Below are positions 1 to 7,265 of a stretch of DNA of 36,636 bases, one piece after another (position 1 is the first letter of the stretch; the number at the start of each line of letters is the position of its first letter). A program made the position numbers and the translations under genes. The notes beneath the pieces are model-generated. The model did no database searches, was not told the origin of the DNA, and was given only the letters and a program-made list of their open reading frames with translations. The DNA comes from an uncultured bacterium. GTDB taxonomy: Bacteria; Actinomycetota; Actinomycetes; S36-B12; CAIKAW01. The DNA lies in NCBI GenBank assembly GCA_903825575.1, contig CAIKAW010000009.1, forward strand, positions 1 through 36,636. The letters run 5' to 3'.

Positions 1-177
1 CGCCACACGTTCGCCAGCCTGCTCCTGGCCGACGGCGAGAGCGTGCGAACGGTCGCCGACCTTATGGGCCATGCCAAGACCAGCACAACTTGGGACACGT
101 ATGGGCACGTCGCAGCAGAGACTCGTAGGTCGGCTACGGACCGACTTGCACGACTCATGAGCAAAGAATGGCTGTAA
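1..177 (+). CDS. Tyrosine recombinase (phage-type integrase), C-terminal part only
   Basis: The reading frame is open from the first base to a TAA at 175-177, so the N-terminus lies outside the window. The 58 visible residues start at the second catalytic box, RHTFASLLL. They continue through LMGHAKTS (the LGH box) to TTWDTYGH, which carries the nucleophilic Tyr. This is the normal end of a phage-type integrase that cuts and rejoins DNA at attachment sites. The gene ends 76 bp from the 3' end of a tRNA-Met gene, the usual position for an integrase at one edge of an element inserted in a tRNA gene. Family membership is clear. Whether the full gene is intact, and whether it belongs to a prophage, an integrative conjugative element or a small island, cannot be seen here. 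Confidence 0.9.
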   Translation, partial: RHTFASLLLADGESVRTVADLMGHAKTSTTWDTYGHVAAETRRSATDRLARLMSKEWL

Positions 178-201
178 GGCTGTAACTTCGGCTGTAACTT
201 C
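170..201 (+). repeat. Short tandem repeat at the integrase stop codon
   Basis: A 12-base unit (ggctgtaacttc) occurs twice in tandem at 178-189 and 190-201. Its first eight bases also appear just before, at 170-177, where they include the integrase stop codon. The repeat lies between the recombinase gene and the tRNA 3' end. It could be a recombinase arm-binding direct repeat or simple slippage. Confidence 0.6.
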
Positions 202-253
202 GGCGTCACCCTCACTGCGCGAGCTAGAATCCCTTACGTACCAAGGACTTTCG

Positions 254-328
254 TGGGGCGGGTGGGGTTCGAACCCACGACCTGTCGGGTTATGAGCCCG
301 CCGCTCTGACCAGCTGAGCTACCGCCCC
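254..328 (-). tRNA. tRNA-Met (anticodon CAT)
   Basis: Read on the minus strand, the 7-bp acceptor stem (GGGGCGG, 328-322) pairs with CCGCCCC (261-255). The D arm begins GCTCAGCTGG, the anticodon loop reads CTCATAA and the T arm is GTGGG-TTCGAAC-CCCAC. The discriminator is A at 254 and CCA is not encoded. The anticodon CAT fits elongator tRNA-Met; a tRNA-Ile2 carrying lysidine cannot be fully excluded. Its 3' end faces the integrase gene, so this half of the gene is the likely attachment core. Confidence 0.93.
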
Positions 329-360
329 GCCGGGAACCTTACCGACCGACCGATCCAGCG

Positions 361-436
361 TGGCTCCCGCACTTGGACTCGAACCAAGAACCTGCCGGTT
401 AACAGCCGGCTGCTCTGCCAATTGAGCTATGCGGGA
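361..436 (-). tRNA. tRNA-Asn (anticodon GTT)
   Basis: On the minus strand the acceptor TCCCGCA (436-430) pairs with TGCGGGA (371-365). The anticodon loop has GTT (403-401), the T loop has the TTCGAGT form, and the gene encodes discriminator G followed by CCA (363-361). It lies 32 bp upstream of tRNA-Met on the same strand, so the two are probably co-transcribed. Confidence 0.96.
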
Positions 437-475
437 CTACTCATCACGATCTCTGAAGCGGCCCTGAGAATAACA

Positions 476-507
476 GCCTGACGGCCAGCCAGGACCGGCG
501 GTCAGGC
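476..507 (-). terminator. Probable Rho-independent terminator after the dnaG operon
   Basis: The arms gcctgac (476-482) and gtcaggc (501-507) pair perfectly. After one mismatch three further pairs continue inward, leaving a loop of about 10 nt. On the minus strand the hairpin is followed by TGTTATTCTC, which is moderately U-rich. The right arm overlaps the stop codon of the preceding gene (504-502). Its position between the protein genes and the tRNA genes fits a terminator. Confidence 0.6.
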
Positions 508-1008
508 CCCCAGTAGCGAGCGCAAGGTCGCCAACTCGGACTCGGCCCGGGCCCGCAGCCCCGGATCGCTTGGATCTAGCCCGGCATCAAAGACCACTGC
601 CCAGCGAAGTTCTGGCGAACCGTAGGTGCGGCGGGCAATCAGGCGAGCCCCGCCTTGGTCTGTCAACTCCACGTATGTCGAATGGACGATGTTGGCAGTC
701 ACGCGATCGCGGATCGCCTCGGGAACTCGGCCGGGCACTGGGAGTGTGATCGAACGTCTGATTGAGGGGCCGCCTGGTACTGGCTGGACGACCAAGTCCG
801 CAACCGGTTCGTCCCAGGACGCACGCACGACCGAGTCCCAAGGAATCACAGTCGGGTCCGCGTCGGGTTTGATCAGGTGGAGCGCTCGGGCTGTCGCCAC
901 TGCATAACCAGACTCGACCCGTGAAGCCTGCCAGTGGCCCCAGGCCAAGACCTTCTCGCCACCCAAGAACGAGCGAATCTGCGCTGGCAGTCGTTCCCAC
1001 CGGGCCAT
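502..1008 (-). CDS. Conserved hypothetical protein downstream of dnaG
   Basis: This 168-residue protein begins MARWERLP at the ATG at 1008, one base after the dnaG stop codon (1012-1010), so it is almost certainly translated with dnaG. The frame stays open further upstream inside dnaG, but that part is out-of-frame dnaG sequence and I exclude it. The protein is soluble with no signal peptide or membrane segment. The stretch VLAWGHWQASRV...IPWDSVVRASWDEP resembles the strand pattern and Trp-Asp motif of bacterial PH-like domains; this is a weak inference. The C-terminal end (GLRARAESELATLRSLL) is predicted helical. Hypothetical proteins of this kind occur beside dnaG in actinobacteria, but I do not know a function. 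Confidence 0.85.
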   Translation of the reverse strand: MARWERLPAQIRSFLGGEKVLAWGHWQASRVESGYAVATARALHLIKPDADPTVIPWDSVVRASWDEPVADLVVQPVPGGPSIRRSITLPVPGRVPEAIRDRVTANIVHSTYVELTDQGGARLIARRTYGSPELRWAVVFDAGLDPSDPGLRARAESELATLRSLLGA

Positions 1009-1009
1009 G

Positions 1010-2887
1010 TCAGATCTCGCCCAACCCTTGATCGCGCACGTTGCGCCGGTACTGCTCGAGCGCCAGTAGGTCGGCGAAAGCGCGGGCTGAGGCTTCCGGC
1101 TCCGCCTCGGCATCGATGCGCTGCAGCCTCGACTTCAAATCCGTAATTCGACGACTTACATCGCGTTCAAGCAGTCGCGCCAAAAACGAGCGGGCATAAC
1201 GTTCATCGGGCGCCCCGGTGGTAGGGATCGGCTCAACCGTCAGTTCGGTTACGAGTGCGCGGACCTCATCGTCAGGACACTGTGCCAACACGGCTTCAAC
1301 CCACTCGCGATCGCGAATTCCGGCGGCCGGACCACCCGCGGCTGCTGCCGCGGCGCGCACCGCAACGTAACCAGGATGACTGAAGGCGGACTCTTCAACT
1401 GCGTCGAACCACTCGCCCACCAACTCCGGAATCTGCAGGACGCACTTAAGCGCTTCGCGTTCGACGCGCAACCGAGGCTCGACGGGGTTCGGGCGCGAGA
1501 ACGTCGTCGACTCCTCGCTTGCGACCACCGCGACACTTGGGTCGGCTGCGCGCTGGTTGCCAGTTCGCGCCGCTACCCGCACAGCCTCGCGCACAACGTC
1601 AGGGTTCAGCCCAAGCCAGCCTGCAAGAAGTCGCGCATACTCAGGCCGCAAAGATTCGTCGCGGATGCGCGCAACGACCGGAGCGGATTCGCGAAGCCCA
1701 GCGATCCGGCCCTCTGCAGTATTAAGGTCGTGATTCGCAAGGGATGAACGGACAGCAAATTCAAATAGCGGCACCGGGCGAGAGACCAGATCCAGCACCG
1801 CCTGATCGCCCTTGGACTGCCGCAACTCGCACGGATCCATCCCTCCAGACTCGATTGCCACAAAGGTCTGGGACACAAATCGTTGGTCCTCACCGAATGC
1901 GCGCAATGCGGCCTTCTGGCCCGCAGCATCACCATCGAAGGTGAACACGACCTCACCCTGGAACTCGTTCTGGTCCATGAGTAGTCGGCGCAACACTCGA
2001 ATGTGTTCGGTACCAAATGCAGTGCCGCAGGTGGCGATGGCAACGGGAACGCCAGCTAGGTGACACGCCATGACGTCGGTGTAACCCTCGACGATGACCG
2101 CGCGCTGGGTCTTAGCGATTTCCTTGCGGGCCAGATCAATTCCGTAAAGCACCTGACTCTTCTTGTACAGCGGGGTTTCTGGCGTGTTCAGATACTTCGG
2201 GCCTTCGTCGTCGTCGTACAACTTGCGGGCGCCGAACCCAATAACGTCCGCAGAAAGATCGCGGATCGGCCACACCAGTCGGCCCCGGAATCGGTCATAC
2301 GCACCGGTGTTTCCTTGCGCGAGCAATCCGGCGGTTAGTAGCTCGGTATCGCTGAAGCTCTTCGCGCGCATGTGGTCGCGCAGCCCACCCCAACCCTTGG
2401 GCGCATAGCCAACACCGAAGTGTTCAGCGTCGGCCGGCTCGAACCCGCGGTCGCGCAAGAACTTGCGTCCGGTCTCAGCCTCCGGGCTGGCCAATTGCGC
2501 GACGTAGTACGCGGCCGCAACTCGATTAGCTTCAACCAATCGGGTGCGCTGACCTTGCGGCCTGGTCGTCGCCGCGCCACCTTCTTCGTAGCGGAGCTGG
2601 ACTCCGAAACGTCCCGCCAACTTCTCAACAGCCTCCGTGAATGTCAGGTGCTCCAACTTCTGAACGAAGGTGATGACATCCCCACCCTCTTGACAGCCGA
2701 AGCAGTGGTAGAAGCCCTTGGCTGGGGTGACGTGGAACGAAGGGGAACGCTCTTCATGGAAGGGACACAGGCCCTTCAGGCTGCCTCCCCCGGCAGGTCG
2801 TAGCGAGACGTGCTCGCGCACAACGTCATCAATCCGGGCACGCTCACGGACCGACACCACATCGTCGTCGCGAATCCGTCCGGCCAT
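1010..2887 (-). CDS. dnaG: DNA primase
   Basis: DnaG makes the RNA primers for leading and lagging strand DNA synthesis at the replication fork. The 625-residue length fits the family. The N-terminal CHC2 zinc ribbon is complete, with C41, H44, C62 and C65 (CPFHEERSPSF, then HCFGCQEGGD). The catalytic core follows, with the TOPRIM motif VIVEGYTDVMA near residue 265 and the metal-binding FDGDAAGQKAA further on. The last 150 residues correspond to the helicase-binding region. The ATG at 2887 has an AGGA-type ribosome site about 7 bases upstream. It follows dgt on the same strand with a 387-bp gap, and the next gene starts one base after its stop codon. An inverted repeat of 7-bp arms (2905-2911 and 2915-2921) lies in the leader. 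Confidence 0.98.
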   Translation of the reverse strand: MAGRIRDDDVVSVRERARIDDVVREHVSLRPAGGGSLKGLCPFHEERSPSFHVTPAKGFYHCFGCQEGGDVITFVQKLEHLTFTEAVEKLAGRFGVQLRYEEGGAATTRPQGQRTRLVEANRVAAAYYVAQLASPEAETGRKFLRDRGFEPADAEHFGVGYAPKGWGGLRDHMRAKSFSDTELLTAGLLAQGNTGAYDRFRGRLVWPIRDLSADVIGFGARKLYDDDEGPKYLNTPETPLYKKSQVLYGIDLARKEIAKTQRAVIVEGYTDVMACHLAGVPVAIATCGTAFGTEHIRVLRRLLMDQNEFQGEVVFTFDGDAAGQKAALRAFGEDQRFVSQTFVAIESGGMDPCELRQSKGDQAVLDLVSRPVPLFEFAVRSSLANHDLNTAEGRIAGLRESAPVVARIRDESLRPEYARLLAGWLGLNPDVVREAVRVAARTGNQRAADPSVAVVASEESTTFSRPNPVEPRLRVEREALKCVLQIPELVGEWFDAVEESAFSHPGYVAVRAAAAAAGGPAAGIRDREWVEAVLAQCPDDEVRALVTELTVEPIPTTGAPDERYARSFLARLLERDVSRRITDLKSRLQRIDAEAEPEASARAFADLLALEQYRRNVRDQGLGEI

Positions 2888-2904
2888 GTCCGGATCCTAG
2901 GCCG

Positions 2905-2921
2905 GAGCCCTTAAAGGGCTC
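2905..2921. repeat. Inverted repeat just upstream of dnaG
   Basis: gagccct (2905-2911) and agggctc (2915-2921) form a 7-bp stem with a 3-base loop, 17 bases before the dnaG start codon. No U-run follows on either strand, so it is not a typical terminator. It could be an operator or a leader hairpin that affects dnaG translation. Confidence 0.4.
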
Positions 2922-2949
2922 GGTGCGGCCACATAACAAGCAGCCGATG

Positions 2950-3123
2950 TCACAAGAGCTCGCTGCGGTCGATGAACCCCACCACTGGCCGGACCACGGT
3001 TAATTCCTCCCAGAGGATCAACCACTGCGTACCTTGCATGACCCGACGAATCGCCCGGATGCCATTGCTGAACTGGATTCGACGGGCTCGAACGTCGACG
3101 GGATCGGACTCAATCCAAGCCAA
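2950..3123 (-). CDS. Candidate small protein between dgt and dnaG
   Basis: The 387-bp gap between dgt and dnaG holds an open minus-strand frame that looks coding in its second half. I place the start at a TTG at 3123 because GAGG (3133-3130) lies exactly six bases upstream, giving 57 residues. The product is basic and Trp/Ile/Val-rich, with IRAIRRVMQGTQWLILWEEL followed by VVRPVVGFIDRSELL. Most codons end in G or C, as in the neighbouring genes. The frame stays open to a GTG at 3258 (102 residues), but that part looks less protein-like. I recognise no family and there is no membrane segment. It could be a chance ORF or the remnant of a longer gene. Confidence 0.4.
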   Translation of the reverse strand: MAWIESDPVDVRARRIQFSNGIRAIRRVMQGTQWLILWEELTVVRPVVGFIDRSELL

Positions 3124-3274
3124 TACATTCCTCGACAAGCCAAGCGGTGCGGGGATCCGATTCGTGCATGGAATCGAGTCGAGCGGCCGGGATTGGATCG
3201 AGGAAGAGCCGTCTGAGGGTCGTGGTACGGATTGTGCCCTAATCGGGCAATGTGGCACTGCCCTTTATCCACGG

Positions 3275-4525
3275 CTAGCGGCAGAGCCGCCGGTGCCAGT
3301 GAACGATTGACCGGTCGGTCAATGAAGCCACCTGGTCGATCACGACGCGCAACCGCTCGGCATCGGTTGCCGCATCCCGCCACGAGGTCTGGAAGGCCGG
3401 ATCCAAAGCGGCTGGGGCCCCGACCACCAGTGCGTACACCAGTTCGCGCACAAGCTCGCGTTGCTGGGAGTAGAAGGCGTCCGCGCCAGCTCGCTGCATG
3501 ACGTAGCGATTGGCGACCGCCTTTAGTACGGCCACTTCGTGCCGCGGCGCATCAGGAATGATCAAGTCGGCCTGGTAGCGAGTTAGCGGACCCCGGCCGT
3601 ACTGCTCTCGAGTCGCGGTCTCGGCCGCAGAACAGAACCGCCCGATCAATTGACTTGTCAGATTCTTCAGGCCCGCCAAAGACTTCAGCGTGCCGTCATA
3701 GGTCGTCGGCCAGTAATCCAGCGCAAGGAGTCGATCGAGTGCCGCACCGAGGGTCGCAGCGCTGGCGTCGGGGGCGTACCAAGATGACGCCAATTCGAGC
3801 AAGTTATAGCGATCATCGCTGCGCAGGTCACGCAATTGCAGGTGGCCGGCCTGCACCGCATCTTCGAGGTCATGGACCGAATATGCAACATCATCCGACC
3901 AATCCATGACCTGTGCTTCGAAGCATTTGCGATCGCCATCGGCACCGATGCGGAGCCATTCGAAAACCGGCAGATCGTCTTGGTACACGCCAAACTTCGT
4001 GCCGCTTGGGTCGCCTTCGGTCGACCTCGTCCACGGATACTTCGTGGAGGCATCTAGCGCCGCCCGGGTCAGGTTCAGACCAACACTGCGGCCGTCATGG
4101 AAAGTCTTAGCTTCCAGCCTGGTCAGCACCCGAAGGCTCTGAGCGTTGCCTTCAAATCCGCCAATCGCGGCAGCGGCTTCATCCAGTGCTGCTTCACCGT
4201 TGTGACCGAACGGCGGGTGGCCAAGATCGTGGGATAGGCAGGCGACCTCAACCAAGTCAGGATCACAACCAAGGGCCGCTCCGAGCTCGCGCCCCACTTG
4301 AGCGCACTCCAACGAATGCGTGAGCCGGGTCCGCGGGAAGTCCGACTCCTCGGGTGACATCACCTGAGTCTTGGCAGCCAACCGGCGCAGCGCGGCCGAA
4401 TGCAGTAGCCGGGCTCGATCGCGGGCGAACGCCGTACGCCCAGCCCGCTTCGGCGGCTCAGCGACAAAACGTGCTTCATCGCCGAGCTCGTAGCCCGGGC
4501 TTAGCCGATCATCGTCGACGCTCAC
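3275..4525 (-). CDS. dgt: Deoxyguanosinetriphosphate triphosphohydrolase-like protein
   Basis: Members of this HD-domain family remove triphosphate from dNTPs and so help set nucleotide pools. The 416 residues carry the metal ligands in order: H70 in [10 protein letters not shown]99-D100 in [14 protein letters not shown], and a later Asp in [16 protein letters not shown]. Length and layout match the actinobacterial Dgt type 2 subfamily. Translation starts at a GTG (4525). The ppdK stop codon is 21 bases upstream, so the two genes form an operon. Gene order with dnaG downstream is typical for the phylum. The exact preferred nucleotide of this subfamily cannot be told from sequence. Confidence 0.96.
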
Positions 4526-4546: not shown

Positions 4547-7243
4547 TCAGCGCGTGTCACTCCCAGCCGCCCCAGAAGATGAGCGTCCGGCCTCAAGTCG
4601 AGCCACTGGAACGCGGAACGGTGAACAAGACACGTAGTCAAGCCCGACCGAATCGAAGAAGTGAACCGACTCTGGGTCGCCGCCGTGCTCGCCGCAGACC
4701 CCGAAGTGCAGGCTCGGGCGAGCCTTGCGGCCCTCCTCGACTGCAATCCGCACCAGCCGGCCCACGCCTTCGCGGTCCAGCGACTCAAAGGGCGAGACCC
4801 CGAAGATTCCCTTGTCCAGGTATTCGCTGAAGAAGCCACCCTCGACGTCGTCACGCGAGAAGCCCCAGGTCGTCTGCGTCAGGTCGTTGGTGCCGAAGGA
4901 GAAGAACTCCGCGGCCTCAGCGATCAGCCCAGCTGTTAGCGCGGCACGTGGCAACTCGATCATCGTGCCGATCGGGAACTCCAAGGTGGTACCGGCAGCG
5001 GCCTGAACCTCGGCCAGTACCGAGACGGCCTCATCGCGAACGAGCTCGAGTTCCTGCACAGCGCCCACCAGCGGAATCATGATTTCGGGACGCGGGTCGC
5101 CACCGGCCTTAGCCCGAGCCACAGTCGCTTCTGCTATAGCGCGAACCTGCAAAGCGAACAGGCCTGGGATCACCAAGCCAAGGCGTACCCCACGCAGGCC
5201 GAGCATCGGGTTGGACTCGTGTAGTCGGTTGACCGCCTGCAGCAGACGGGCATCGGCCGCATCGACCTCGCCCTTGGCCTCGGCGAGCGCAACCTTGACT
5301 GCAAGTTCGGTGCGGTCGGGAAGGAACTCGTGCAGCGGCGGGTCCAGCAAGCGAATCGTGACAGGCAGCCCGTCCATCGCTTCAAGGATCTCTTCGAAAT
5401 CCTTACGCTGCAACGGAAGTAGCGCACTTAGCGCCGTAGCGATCTCGTCGTTAGTCTCCGCGAGGATCAACCGCTCAACGTGAATACGGCGCTCGCCCAG
5501 GAACATGTGCTCGGTACGACAAAGCCCGATGCCCTGCGCACCCATCCGACGGGCGCGAGCTGCGTCCTCCGGAGTGTCAGCATTCGCGCGCACCTTCATG
5601 CGACGCTCGATGTCTGCCTGCTGCATCAAACGGTGCACCGCGGCGACCAAGTCATCGGCCGCAACTTCATCAGGACTGAGTTCGCCTTCGAAGTACTGCA
5701 CCACCGGCGAAGGAACTACCGGCACCTCGCCGAGGTAGATCGCACCGGAGGAACCGTCGATCGAGATGACGTCACCTTCGCTGACGACCGTGCCGTTCGG
5801 CGTAGTGAAACGTCGAGCCTTCGTGTCCACTTCGAGATCCTCAGCACCGCACACAGCGGTCTTGCCCATTCCGCGGGCAACGACTGCAGCGTGCGATGTC
5901 TTGCCCCCGCGACTGGTCAGGATGCCCACTGCAGCAACCATTCCCTCAAGGTCATCTGGGTTGGTCTCGCGACGAACCAGAATCACCGAATGGCCCTCGG
6001 CCGCCCACTTGACTGCAGACTTTGAGTCGAACACCACTTGGCCCACCGAAGCACCTGGCGATGCGTTCATGCCCCTAGCCAGCAACGTCGGCTTACCCGT
6101 TGAATCGAAGCGCGGGAACATCAACTGGGCAAGCTGAGCGCCATTAACTCGCTGCAATGCTTCATCGGCCGTGATCAAGCCTTCGTCAACAAGTTGCGTG
6201 GCAATGCGGAAGGCAGCACCAGCAGTGCGCTTGCCGACCCGAGTCTGCAACATCCAAAGCTTGCCGCGTTCAATCGTGAACTCGATGTCGCACAGATCGC
6301 GGTAGTGGGTCTCAAGCACATTCATGATGCGCAGCAACTCCGCGTACGAAGTTGGGTCGAGTTCGCCTAGTTGCTCGAGCGGCAAGGTGTTGCGGATACC
6401 AGCGACGACGTCTTCGCCCTGCGCGTTCTGCAGGTAATCGCCGTAGCTTCCCGTTGCGCCGCTACCCGGGTCGCGCGTGAAGGCCACGCCAGTGCCTGAA
6501 TCCATCCCGAGGTTTCCGTAGACCATGGTGACGATGTTGACCGCGGTGCCGAGGTCGTGGGGAATGCGTTCCTGACGACGGTACAACTTGGCGCGATCGG
6601 TATTCCAAGAGTGGAAGACGGCGTACACAGCCAGATCGAGTTGCTCACGCGGGTCCTGCGGGAACGCCTTGCCTGACTCGTGCTCGACGATGGCCTTGAA
6701 GGTCGCGACAAGTTCACGCAGATCATCAGCGGTCAGGTCGACGTCTTGGGTGACGCCACGTTCGGCCTTCTTAGCTTCGAGAGCGGATTCGAAGTGGTGC
6801 CCTTCGATATCCAGCACGGTCTTACCGAACATCTGAATCAACCGGCGGTAAGAGTCAGTCGCAAATCGGTCATCGCCACTGATGGCGGCAAGGCCAACAA
6901 CCGAAGCGTCGTTCAGCCCAATATTCAGGACGGTTTCCATCATTCCGGGCATCGAGAATTTGGCACCTGAACGAACCGAAACCAGAAGCGGGTCAGAAGC
7001 GTCGCCAAGAGTGCGGCCGATGGCCAACTCGAGGCGATGTAGGTGGGCGGTGATTTCGTCGGCCAGCGTCTCCGGCTCGTGGCCGGTGTGAAGGAACTCG
7101 CGGCAGGCTTCAGTTGAAATCGTGAAGCCTGGAGGCACGGGCAGACCAATCCGGGTCATCTCGGCGAGGTTTGCACCCTTGCCCCCGAGAAGGTCCTTCT
7201 GATCCTTGTTGCCCTCGCTGAAATCGTAAACGTACGTGACCAT
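4547..7243 (-). CDS. ppdK: Pyruvate, phosphate dikinase
   Basis: PPDK interconverts pyruvate, ATP and phosphate with phosphoenolpyruvate, AMP and pyrophosphate, in glycolysis or gluconeogenesis. The 898-residue protein shows all three parts. The N-terminal ATP-grasp domain begins with GGKGANLAEM. The swivelling domain has the phosphorylated His near residue 450 in GGKTSHAAVVARGMGK. The C-terminal PEP/pyruvate barrel has GLCRTEHMF and the catalytic Cys near residue 849 in GVCGEHGGD. I start it at the ATG at 7243 (MVTYVYDFSEG), which has an AGCGAGG ribosome site upstream; the frame is open 16 codons further but without family similarity. It is followed by dgt after 21 bases. Confidence 0.97.
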   Translation of the reverse strand: MVTYVYDFSEGNKDQKDLLGGKGANLAEMTRIGLPVPPGFTISTEACREFLHTGHEPETLADEITAHLHRLELAIGRTLGDASDPLLVSVRSGAKFSMPGMMETVLNIGLNDASVVGLAAISGDDRFATDSYRRLIQMFGKTVLDIEGHHFESALEAKKAERGVTQDVDLTADDLRELVATFKAIVEHESGKAFPQDPREQLDLAVYAVFHSWNTDRAKLYRRQERIPHDLGTAVNIVTMVYGNLGMDSGTGVAFTRDPGSGATGSYGDYLQNAQGEDVVAGIRNTLPLEQLGELDPTSYAELLRIMNVLETHYRDLCDIEFTIERGKLWMLQTRVGKRTAGAAFRIATQLVDEGLITADEALQRVNGAQLAQLMFPRFDSTGKPTLLARGMNASPGASVGQVVFDSKSAVKWAAEGHSVILVRRETNPDDLEGMVAAVGILTSRGGKTSHAAVVARGMGKTAVCGAEDLEVDTKARRFTTPNGTVVSEGDVISIDGSSGAIYLGEVPVVPSPVVQYFEGELSPDEVAADDLVAAVHRLMQQADIERRMKVRANADTPEDAARARRMGAQGIGLCRTEHMFLGERRIHVERLILAETNDEIATALSALLPLQRKDFEEILEAMDGLPVTIRLLDPPLHEFLPDRTELAVKVALAEAKGEVDAADARLLQAVNRLHESNPMLGLRGVRLGLVIPGLFALQVRAIAEATVARAKAGGDPRPEIMIPLVGAVQELELVRDEAVSVLAEVQAAAGTTLEFPIGTMIELPRAALTAGLIAEAAEFFSFGTNDLTQTTWGFSRDDVEGGFFSEYLDKGIFGVSPFESLDREGVGRLVRIAVEEGRKARPSLHFGVCGEHGGDPESVHFFDSVGLDYVSCSPFRVPVARLEAGRSSSGAAGSDTR

Positions 7244-7265
7244 TCGCTGACCTCGCTGTCGATCT

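Follow-up and report, generated by a model that had tools for sequence, protein, structure and literature searches.

The left edge of the DNA analysed here, a stretch of 36,636 bases referred to below as the window, is very likely (probability of about 0.8) the junction at which the integrase end of an inserted mobile element meets its target, the 3′ part of a tRNA-Met(CAT) gene. The window carries the tail of an integrase that converges with the tRNA gene, core chromosome lies on the opposite side, and the same tRNA-Met is used by other elements in the order. The candidate kinds of element are a prophage, an integrative conjugative or mobilizable element, or a genomic island. The original prediction of an integrase-proximal attachment-site layout is supported, as the same tRNA-Met hosts integrases and repeats of the tRNA 3′ part in other genomes of the order. 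The junction itself is ordinary: the mechanism is known and this is one more case of a well-known pattern. The element-edge reading offers a reason for the starting point of the contig, and it marks a place of foreign-DNA uptake. The lead worth keeping is the recurrent insertion at tRNA-Met in the relatives, where some cassettes come without an integrase. Such recurrent use could help to map accessory genes and to finish assemblies at this place.

The features of the edge and of the adjoining chromosome are the following:

1–177, plus strand: final 58 codons of the gene for a phage-type tyrosine recombinase (integrase), truncated where the contig ends; identified from the open frame, Pfam PF00589 and PHROGs
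170–177, 178–185 and 190–197 (within 170–197), plus strand: three direct copies of GGCTGTAA, spanning the integrase stop codon
178–252, no strand: spacer of 75 bp from the integrase stop to the tRNA 3′ end, from the frame and ARAGORN positions
253–328, minus strand: tRNA-Met(CAT), presumed target gene, with its 3′ end facing the integrase (ARAGORN)
253–296, minus strand: predicted attachment core, from the tRNA 3′ end to the anticodon loop, deduced from 3′-fragment copies in genomes G006, G019, G039, G111, G082 and G046
361–436, minus strand: tRNA-Asn(GTT) (ARAGORN)
1010–2887, minus strand: dnaG, DNA primase (above the NCBIfam cut-off)
3275–4525, minus strand: dGTP triphosphohydrolase (dGTPase) gene (above the NCBIfam cut-off)
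4547–7246, minus strand: pyruvate, phosphate dikinase gene (ppdK), above the NCBIfam cut-off for the start used in the comparison; the frame stays open up to 7291

Integrase tail and tRNA-Met gene

The integrase frame is open from base 1 and ends with a stop codon at 175–177, which leaves 58 amino acids. This tail aligns to profile positions 133–170 of 172 of the Pfam Phage_integrase model (PF00589) with 29.4 bits, for a cut-off of 27.1. It also matches the PHROG integrase families phrog_1, 7685 and 216, with a best E-value of 7.4e-14. Twelve other integrases, 10 from public contigs and two from the order (G006 and G070), were aligned, and their invariant R-H, G-H and Y residues have counterparts in the tail at codons 1–2, 23–24 and 34, respectively. 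The 58 visible codons are free of stops and the residues of the catalytic region are kept. The three direct copies of GGCTGTAA have no further counterpart on the plus strand of the 36,636-base window and a single one on the minus strand. They could be arm-type binding sites of the integrase within the attachment region of the supposed element.

The integrase stop is followed by 75 bases and then by the 3′ end of the tRNA on the other strand, so that the integrase and tRNA-Met genes converge. The proximity of the recombinase C-terminus to the 3′ end of tRNA-Met(CAT) had been predicted with a gap of 76 bp; the proximity is confirmed and the gap is corrected to 75 bp (178–252). The spacer would be derived from the element, if the element reading is right. 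The Met identity is the ARAGORN call, and tRNAs with a CAT anticodon comprise the elongator Met, initiator and isoleucine types. Core chromosome had been expected beyond the tRNA, and this expectation is borne out by dnaG, the dGTPase gene and ppdK, each scoring above its NCBIfam cut-off. The frame 502–1009 on the minus strand, between tRNA-Asn and dnaG, has no NCBIfam match. No break in base composition was found at the tRNA, with 59.6% GC in 1–250 and 57.6–65.6% in the steps covering 251–4000.

It is well documented that tyrosine integrases insert elements into the 3′ part of tRNA genes, that a displaced tRNA fragment then marks the far end, and that the site is commonly centred on the anticodon (PMC4383910). 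In Table 1 of that work, the most frequent form of the Islander class has a 3′ tDNA fragment (3760 of 3919 islands), and an anticodon-centred site is seen in 2083 of 3919. Two traits by which this class is recognised were found at the window edge: a tyrosine integrase gene on the tRNA side of the element, present as a partial gene cut by the contig end, and an intact target tRNA at one end, with its 3′ end toward the element. As described for these islands, the window has an integrase beside a tRNA whose 3′ end faces the element; the islands carry a fragment at the far end, whereas the contig of the window ends before any such end (PMC4383910). Integrative and conjugative elements of actinomycetes (AICEs) are likewise described as inserting at tRNA genes, in one case tRNA-Met (PMC3218068). 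Unlike in AICEs, no transfer or replication gene is visible in the 252 bp of the supposed element that the window holds.

Relatives of the tail in public contigs were gathered from 80 of 204 viral loci and 80 of at least 279 genome loci. Together they yielded 148 integrase ORFs, of which 79 are viral and 69 lie on genome contigs. A tRNA gene was found within 400 bp of 23 ORFs (22 of 69 in genome contigs and 1 of 79 in viral ones), in a count that is blind to a tRNA where the ORF abuts a contig end or its flanks were trimmed. The tRNA is located only after the stop in 10 instances, overlaps the ORF in 9, and precedes the start in 4. The 3′ end of the tRNA faces the integrase in 23 of 23; this one-sided orientation serves as the count's internal check. 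Four of the 23 ORFs adjoin tRNA-Met(CAT) (L118, L126, L127 and L130). The exact 29-base end of the tRNA gave no match in viral contigs. The integrase tail was matched in 39 phage records, all with less than 60% identity, which is not informative about the target.

tRNA-Met places in the order

Genomes of the same order were searched for the tRNA, and 117 of 119 had a match. Among the matches listed, 74 tRNA-Met or near-match places in 69 genomes were surveyed, with two places each in G066, G083, G111, G022 and G070. A few near matches, in G037, contig C111 of G022 and contig C218 of G070, are probably not the tRNA-Met in question. The 3′ flank is short at many places, below 1 kb at 21 of 74 and below 4 kb at 36 of 74, so that an integrase would be undetectable at some of them.

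A long integrase frame with the same convergent layout was found at three of the 74 places, 25 bp from the tRNA in G070, 34 bp in G006 and 103 bp in G076. Partial or decayed integrases occur at two more, in G007 (at a contig end, 80 bp from the tRNA) and in G003 (running into the tRNA). At best, 16–19 of 55–57 positions are common with the window tail, and 12 of 55 in G003, which indicates that the integrases at the tRNA-Met of the relatives differ from that of the window. None of the 74 surveyed places carries a close relative of the window recombinase. When the tail itself was searched in the 119 genomes, matches were obtained in 118, as expected for a domain common to Xer proteins. The best 12 matches listed are 38–52% identical and are located at none of the surveyed tRNA-Met places. 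A weaker listed match (37%) is a fragment of the tail in G105, 2.5 kb from its tRNA-Met.

The two sides of the tRNA were compared in a control set of 25 genomes whose contigs extend at least 4 kb from it in either direction. Integrase matches were found three times on the 3′ side and once on the 5′ side (G017). A homologous ORF is common to 6 of 300 genome pairs on the 3′ side versus 23 of 300 on the 5′ side, uncorrected for kinship. The 3′ side of tRNA-Met is less conserved than the 5′ side. In the window, the 3′ side, of which 252 bases are available, has no ORF in common with any of the 25 genomes, and the 5′ side shares ORFs, including dnaG, with five of them. Among the 74 places, no cluster of ORFs on the 3′ side spans more than four genomes. 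On the 3′ side, 12 of the 74 places have a contig end no more than 100 bp from the tRNA, versus 4 of 74 on the 5′ side, again uncorrected for kinship, and the contig of the window also breaks on the 3′ side of tRNA-Met. The position of the best listed matches away from tRNA-Met places, together with the lack of any ORF shared between the 3′ side of the window and the 25 genomes, gives no sign that the recombinase is a core gene in the order. Its presence there as a core gene in relatives had been named in advance as an observation contrary to an element; it was not seen at the 74 surveyed places of the order, among 119 relatives that include no genome of the same family. As no same-family genome was returned, no true empty site was available for comparison.

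Contig edge and alternative readings

The first base of the window is also the first base of contig C9, a point on which the original prediction was silent. The draft genome consists of 2,214,721 bases in 108 contigs and is 95.42% complete. With this start of the contig in a 108-contig draft, the sequence of the element to the left is unreadable in the assembly. All that the window holds of the supposed element is the integrase tail and the spacer (252 bp).

The remainder of the element was sought in the rest of the draft. A search of the 2.2-Mb draft for 254–300 or 254–276 with up to three mismatches returned only the copy of the window, the contig ending inside the integrase. There was no second copy of the spacer 178–252 in the genome. 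Window positions 1–252 gave only chance-level matches of 18–22 bases with the ends of other contigs. A profile of 12 proteins, used to find the other half of the gene on another contig, matched only the XerD gene, the XerC-like gene and the window tail. Because the contig begins inside the integrase, the missing second tRNA copy, integrase half and contig overlap are not strong evidence against an element. No TrwC relaxase was found in the draft, which is without an assembled element body. A helix-turn-helix (excisionase-like) family occurs at six places; the flanks fetched for them contain no integrase match, so that no tie to the window could be made.

Two other tyrosine recombinases are encoded in the genome. 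One is XerD, above the cut-off of its model, on contig C18. The other, on contig C62, is XerC-like: its best model is XerC, with 307.2 bits, below the cut-off of 335.15. The window tail was considered as the XerC or XerD of the genome itself and this assignment was judged very unlikely, since XerD is on C18, the XerC-like protein on C62, and the tail fits phage integrase families. The tail is thus the only one of integrase type that was found.

Other explanations of the edge can be weighed against this background. As only the tail and the spacer are present, a lone decayed integrase would give the same picture. The element could have been lost or have decayed, leaving an integrase relic beside the tRNA and no far repeat. 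A small chance is given to such a remnant; it would agree with an assembly lacking a second copy of the tRNA end, with the decayed or partial integrases at the same place in G003 and G007, and with the tail fragment near the tRNA in G105. The absence of stops in the visible codons and the preserved residues of the catalytic region argue against it. It is very improbable that the tail belongs to a host-encoded, Xer-like core recombinase that adjoins the tRNA by chance. The tail is short, it covers a region common to tyrosine recombinases, and Xer-type proteins match it too, but XerD and an XerC-like protein are already accounted for on other contigs, phage integrase families give the best fit, and no surveyed relative has a recombinase at tRNA-Met as a shared gene.

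Short-read assemblies often err at tRNA repeats, and the contig starts exactly at window base 1. An artefact of assembly or binning, in which the contig end fuses foreign integrase sequence to the tRNA, nevertheless appears extremely improbable, given that the arrangement of integrase, spacer and tRNA recurs in independent genomes. The junction of a mobile element at tRNA-Met remains the preferred reading.

Copies of the tRNA 3′ part and serial cassettes

In G006 (L276, L277), the last 36 bp of the tRNA 3′ end recur without mismatch 20,637 bp away, beyond the integrase. None of 2,000 random 30-mers drawn from the 59.7-kb stretch recurs in it. Apart from the integrase, the scan covered 12 of the interval's 19 frames of at least 80 amino acids, and Pfam recognises seven of them: a TrwC-type relaxase, a helix-turn-helix protein, an ArsA-type ATPase, an SBF-family transporter, a MIP-family channel, a TauE-type exporter and a pyridine nucleotide-disulphide oxidoreductase. 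From this gene content, the 20.6-kb interval looks like an integrative, probably mobilizable, element. The interval carries arsenic-type transport genes.

Copies in series were found in four other genomes. G019 (L282, 11326–19674) has three extra copies of 36–47 bp, 1.9, 7.6 and 8.3 kb away, on which a second tool agrees. G039 (L284) has four copies of 31–49 bp at 1.8, 2.8, 10.1 and 10.8 kb, and a weaker fifth one. There are two copies of the tRNA 3′ part in G111, and four in G082 (L290), 44–46 bp long and 91–100% identical to its own tRNA, at 6.6, 9.9, 11.8 and 15.1 kb. These serial copies begin at the tRNA 3′ end or a few bases from it and extend no further than the anticodon region. Random 30-mers also recur in G019 (21 of 2,000) and G039 (7 of 2,000), owing to other repeats in the islands, so that the case for the tRNA copies rests on their position and ends, not on rarity alone. 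The genes between or near the copies in G019 and G039 encode an MFS transporter, OmpA-type and leucine-rich-repeat proteins, and two-component regulators. An integrase was looked for in 39.8 kb of G019, 16.3 kb of G039 and 19.9 kb of G082, with none found.

Leaving aside G030 and G061, where the tRNA is cut off, 72 of the 74 places could be compared within 4 kb. Copies of the tRNA 3′ part were present at 3 of 72 (G019, G039 and G111), and neither the 5′ half of the tRNA nor a reversed control had a copy within 4 kb at any of the 72. The copies in G006, G046 and G082 lie beyond that distance. No copy that begins at the 3′ end of the tRNA was found in about 10–20 kb of G002, G034, G025, G077, G090, G059, G069, G051 and G112, or in 60 kb of G003. 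The same was observed in shorter stretches of G049 (9.7 kb), G105 (3.6 kb), G070 (2.4 kb), G110 (1.1 kb) and G007 (0.4 kb). In G076, with its adjacent integrase, no 3′ fragment was found in the 9.3 kb up to the contig end.

A repeat of the tRNA 3′ part had been predicted to cover about 254–300. The nature of the repeat is borne out in the relatives, and its extent is slightly different: it starts at or near the equivalent of window position 253 and is about 30–49 bases long. The integrase, if active, would recombine the chromosomal gene with a copy of the tRNA 3′ part brought in by the element, with the crossover somewhere from the tRNA 3′ end to the anticodon loop. At the integrase junction the target tRNA would stay whole, and the displaced 3′ fragment would mark the far end; the copy in the window would lie at the end of a complete or recent element.

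Taken with the integrases, these copies suggest that the tRNA-Met near tRNA-Asn and dnaG is a recurrent insertion point across the order. A literature search of titles and abstract openings did not find a tRNA-Met site described in this order, which is no proof of its being unreported. In the additive flexible islands described for Ca. Actinomarinales (streamlined marine Actinobacteria), inserted cassettes end with repeats of tRNA fragments (PMC7771536). G019, G039, G111 and G082 resemble these islands in having a tRNA as repeated insertion point and a partial tRNA at the cassette end; the islands differ in belonging to another order and in the tRNAs named in that description, and the window itself shows no such array (PMC7771536). 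A tentative and rather unlikely extension is that tRNA-Met serves as a standing site for several integrases and also for serial cassettes without integrase (G019, G039) that would use the integrases of other elements, in which case the window may be the edge of a multi-cassette island.

Two contigs carry further parts of tRNA-Met. In G046 (L198, 7571–7614 of the reversed locus), a 44-bp 3′ fragment of tRNA-Met matches window 253–296 at 97.7%. A degenerate tRNA-like copy is located 6.3 kb from this fragment, and ARAGORN finds no tRNA on that contig. In G076 (L285, 1–58), the first bases of the contig belong to a second copy of the tRNA-Met 5′ part, which shows no difference over 58 bases and is 9.3 kb from the first. 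This arrangement may reflect two tRNA copies, or a circular or repeated arrangement.
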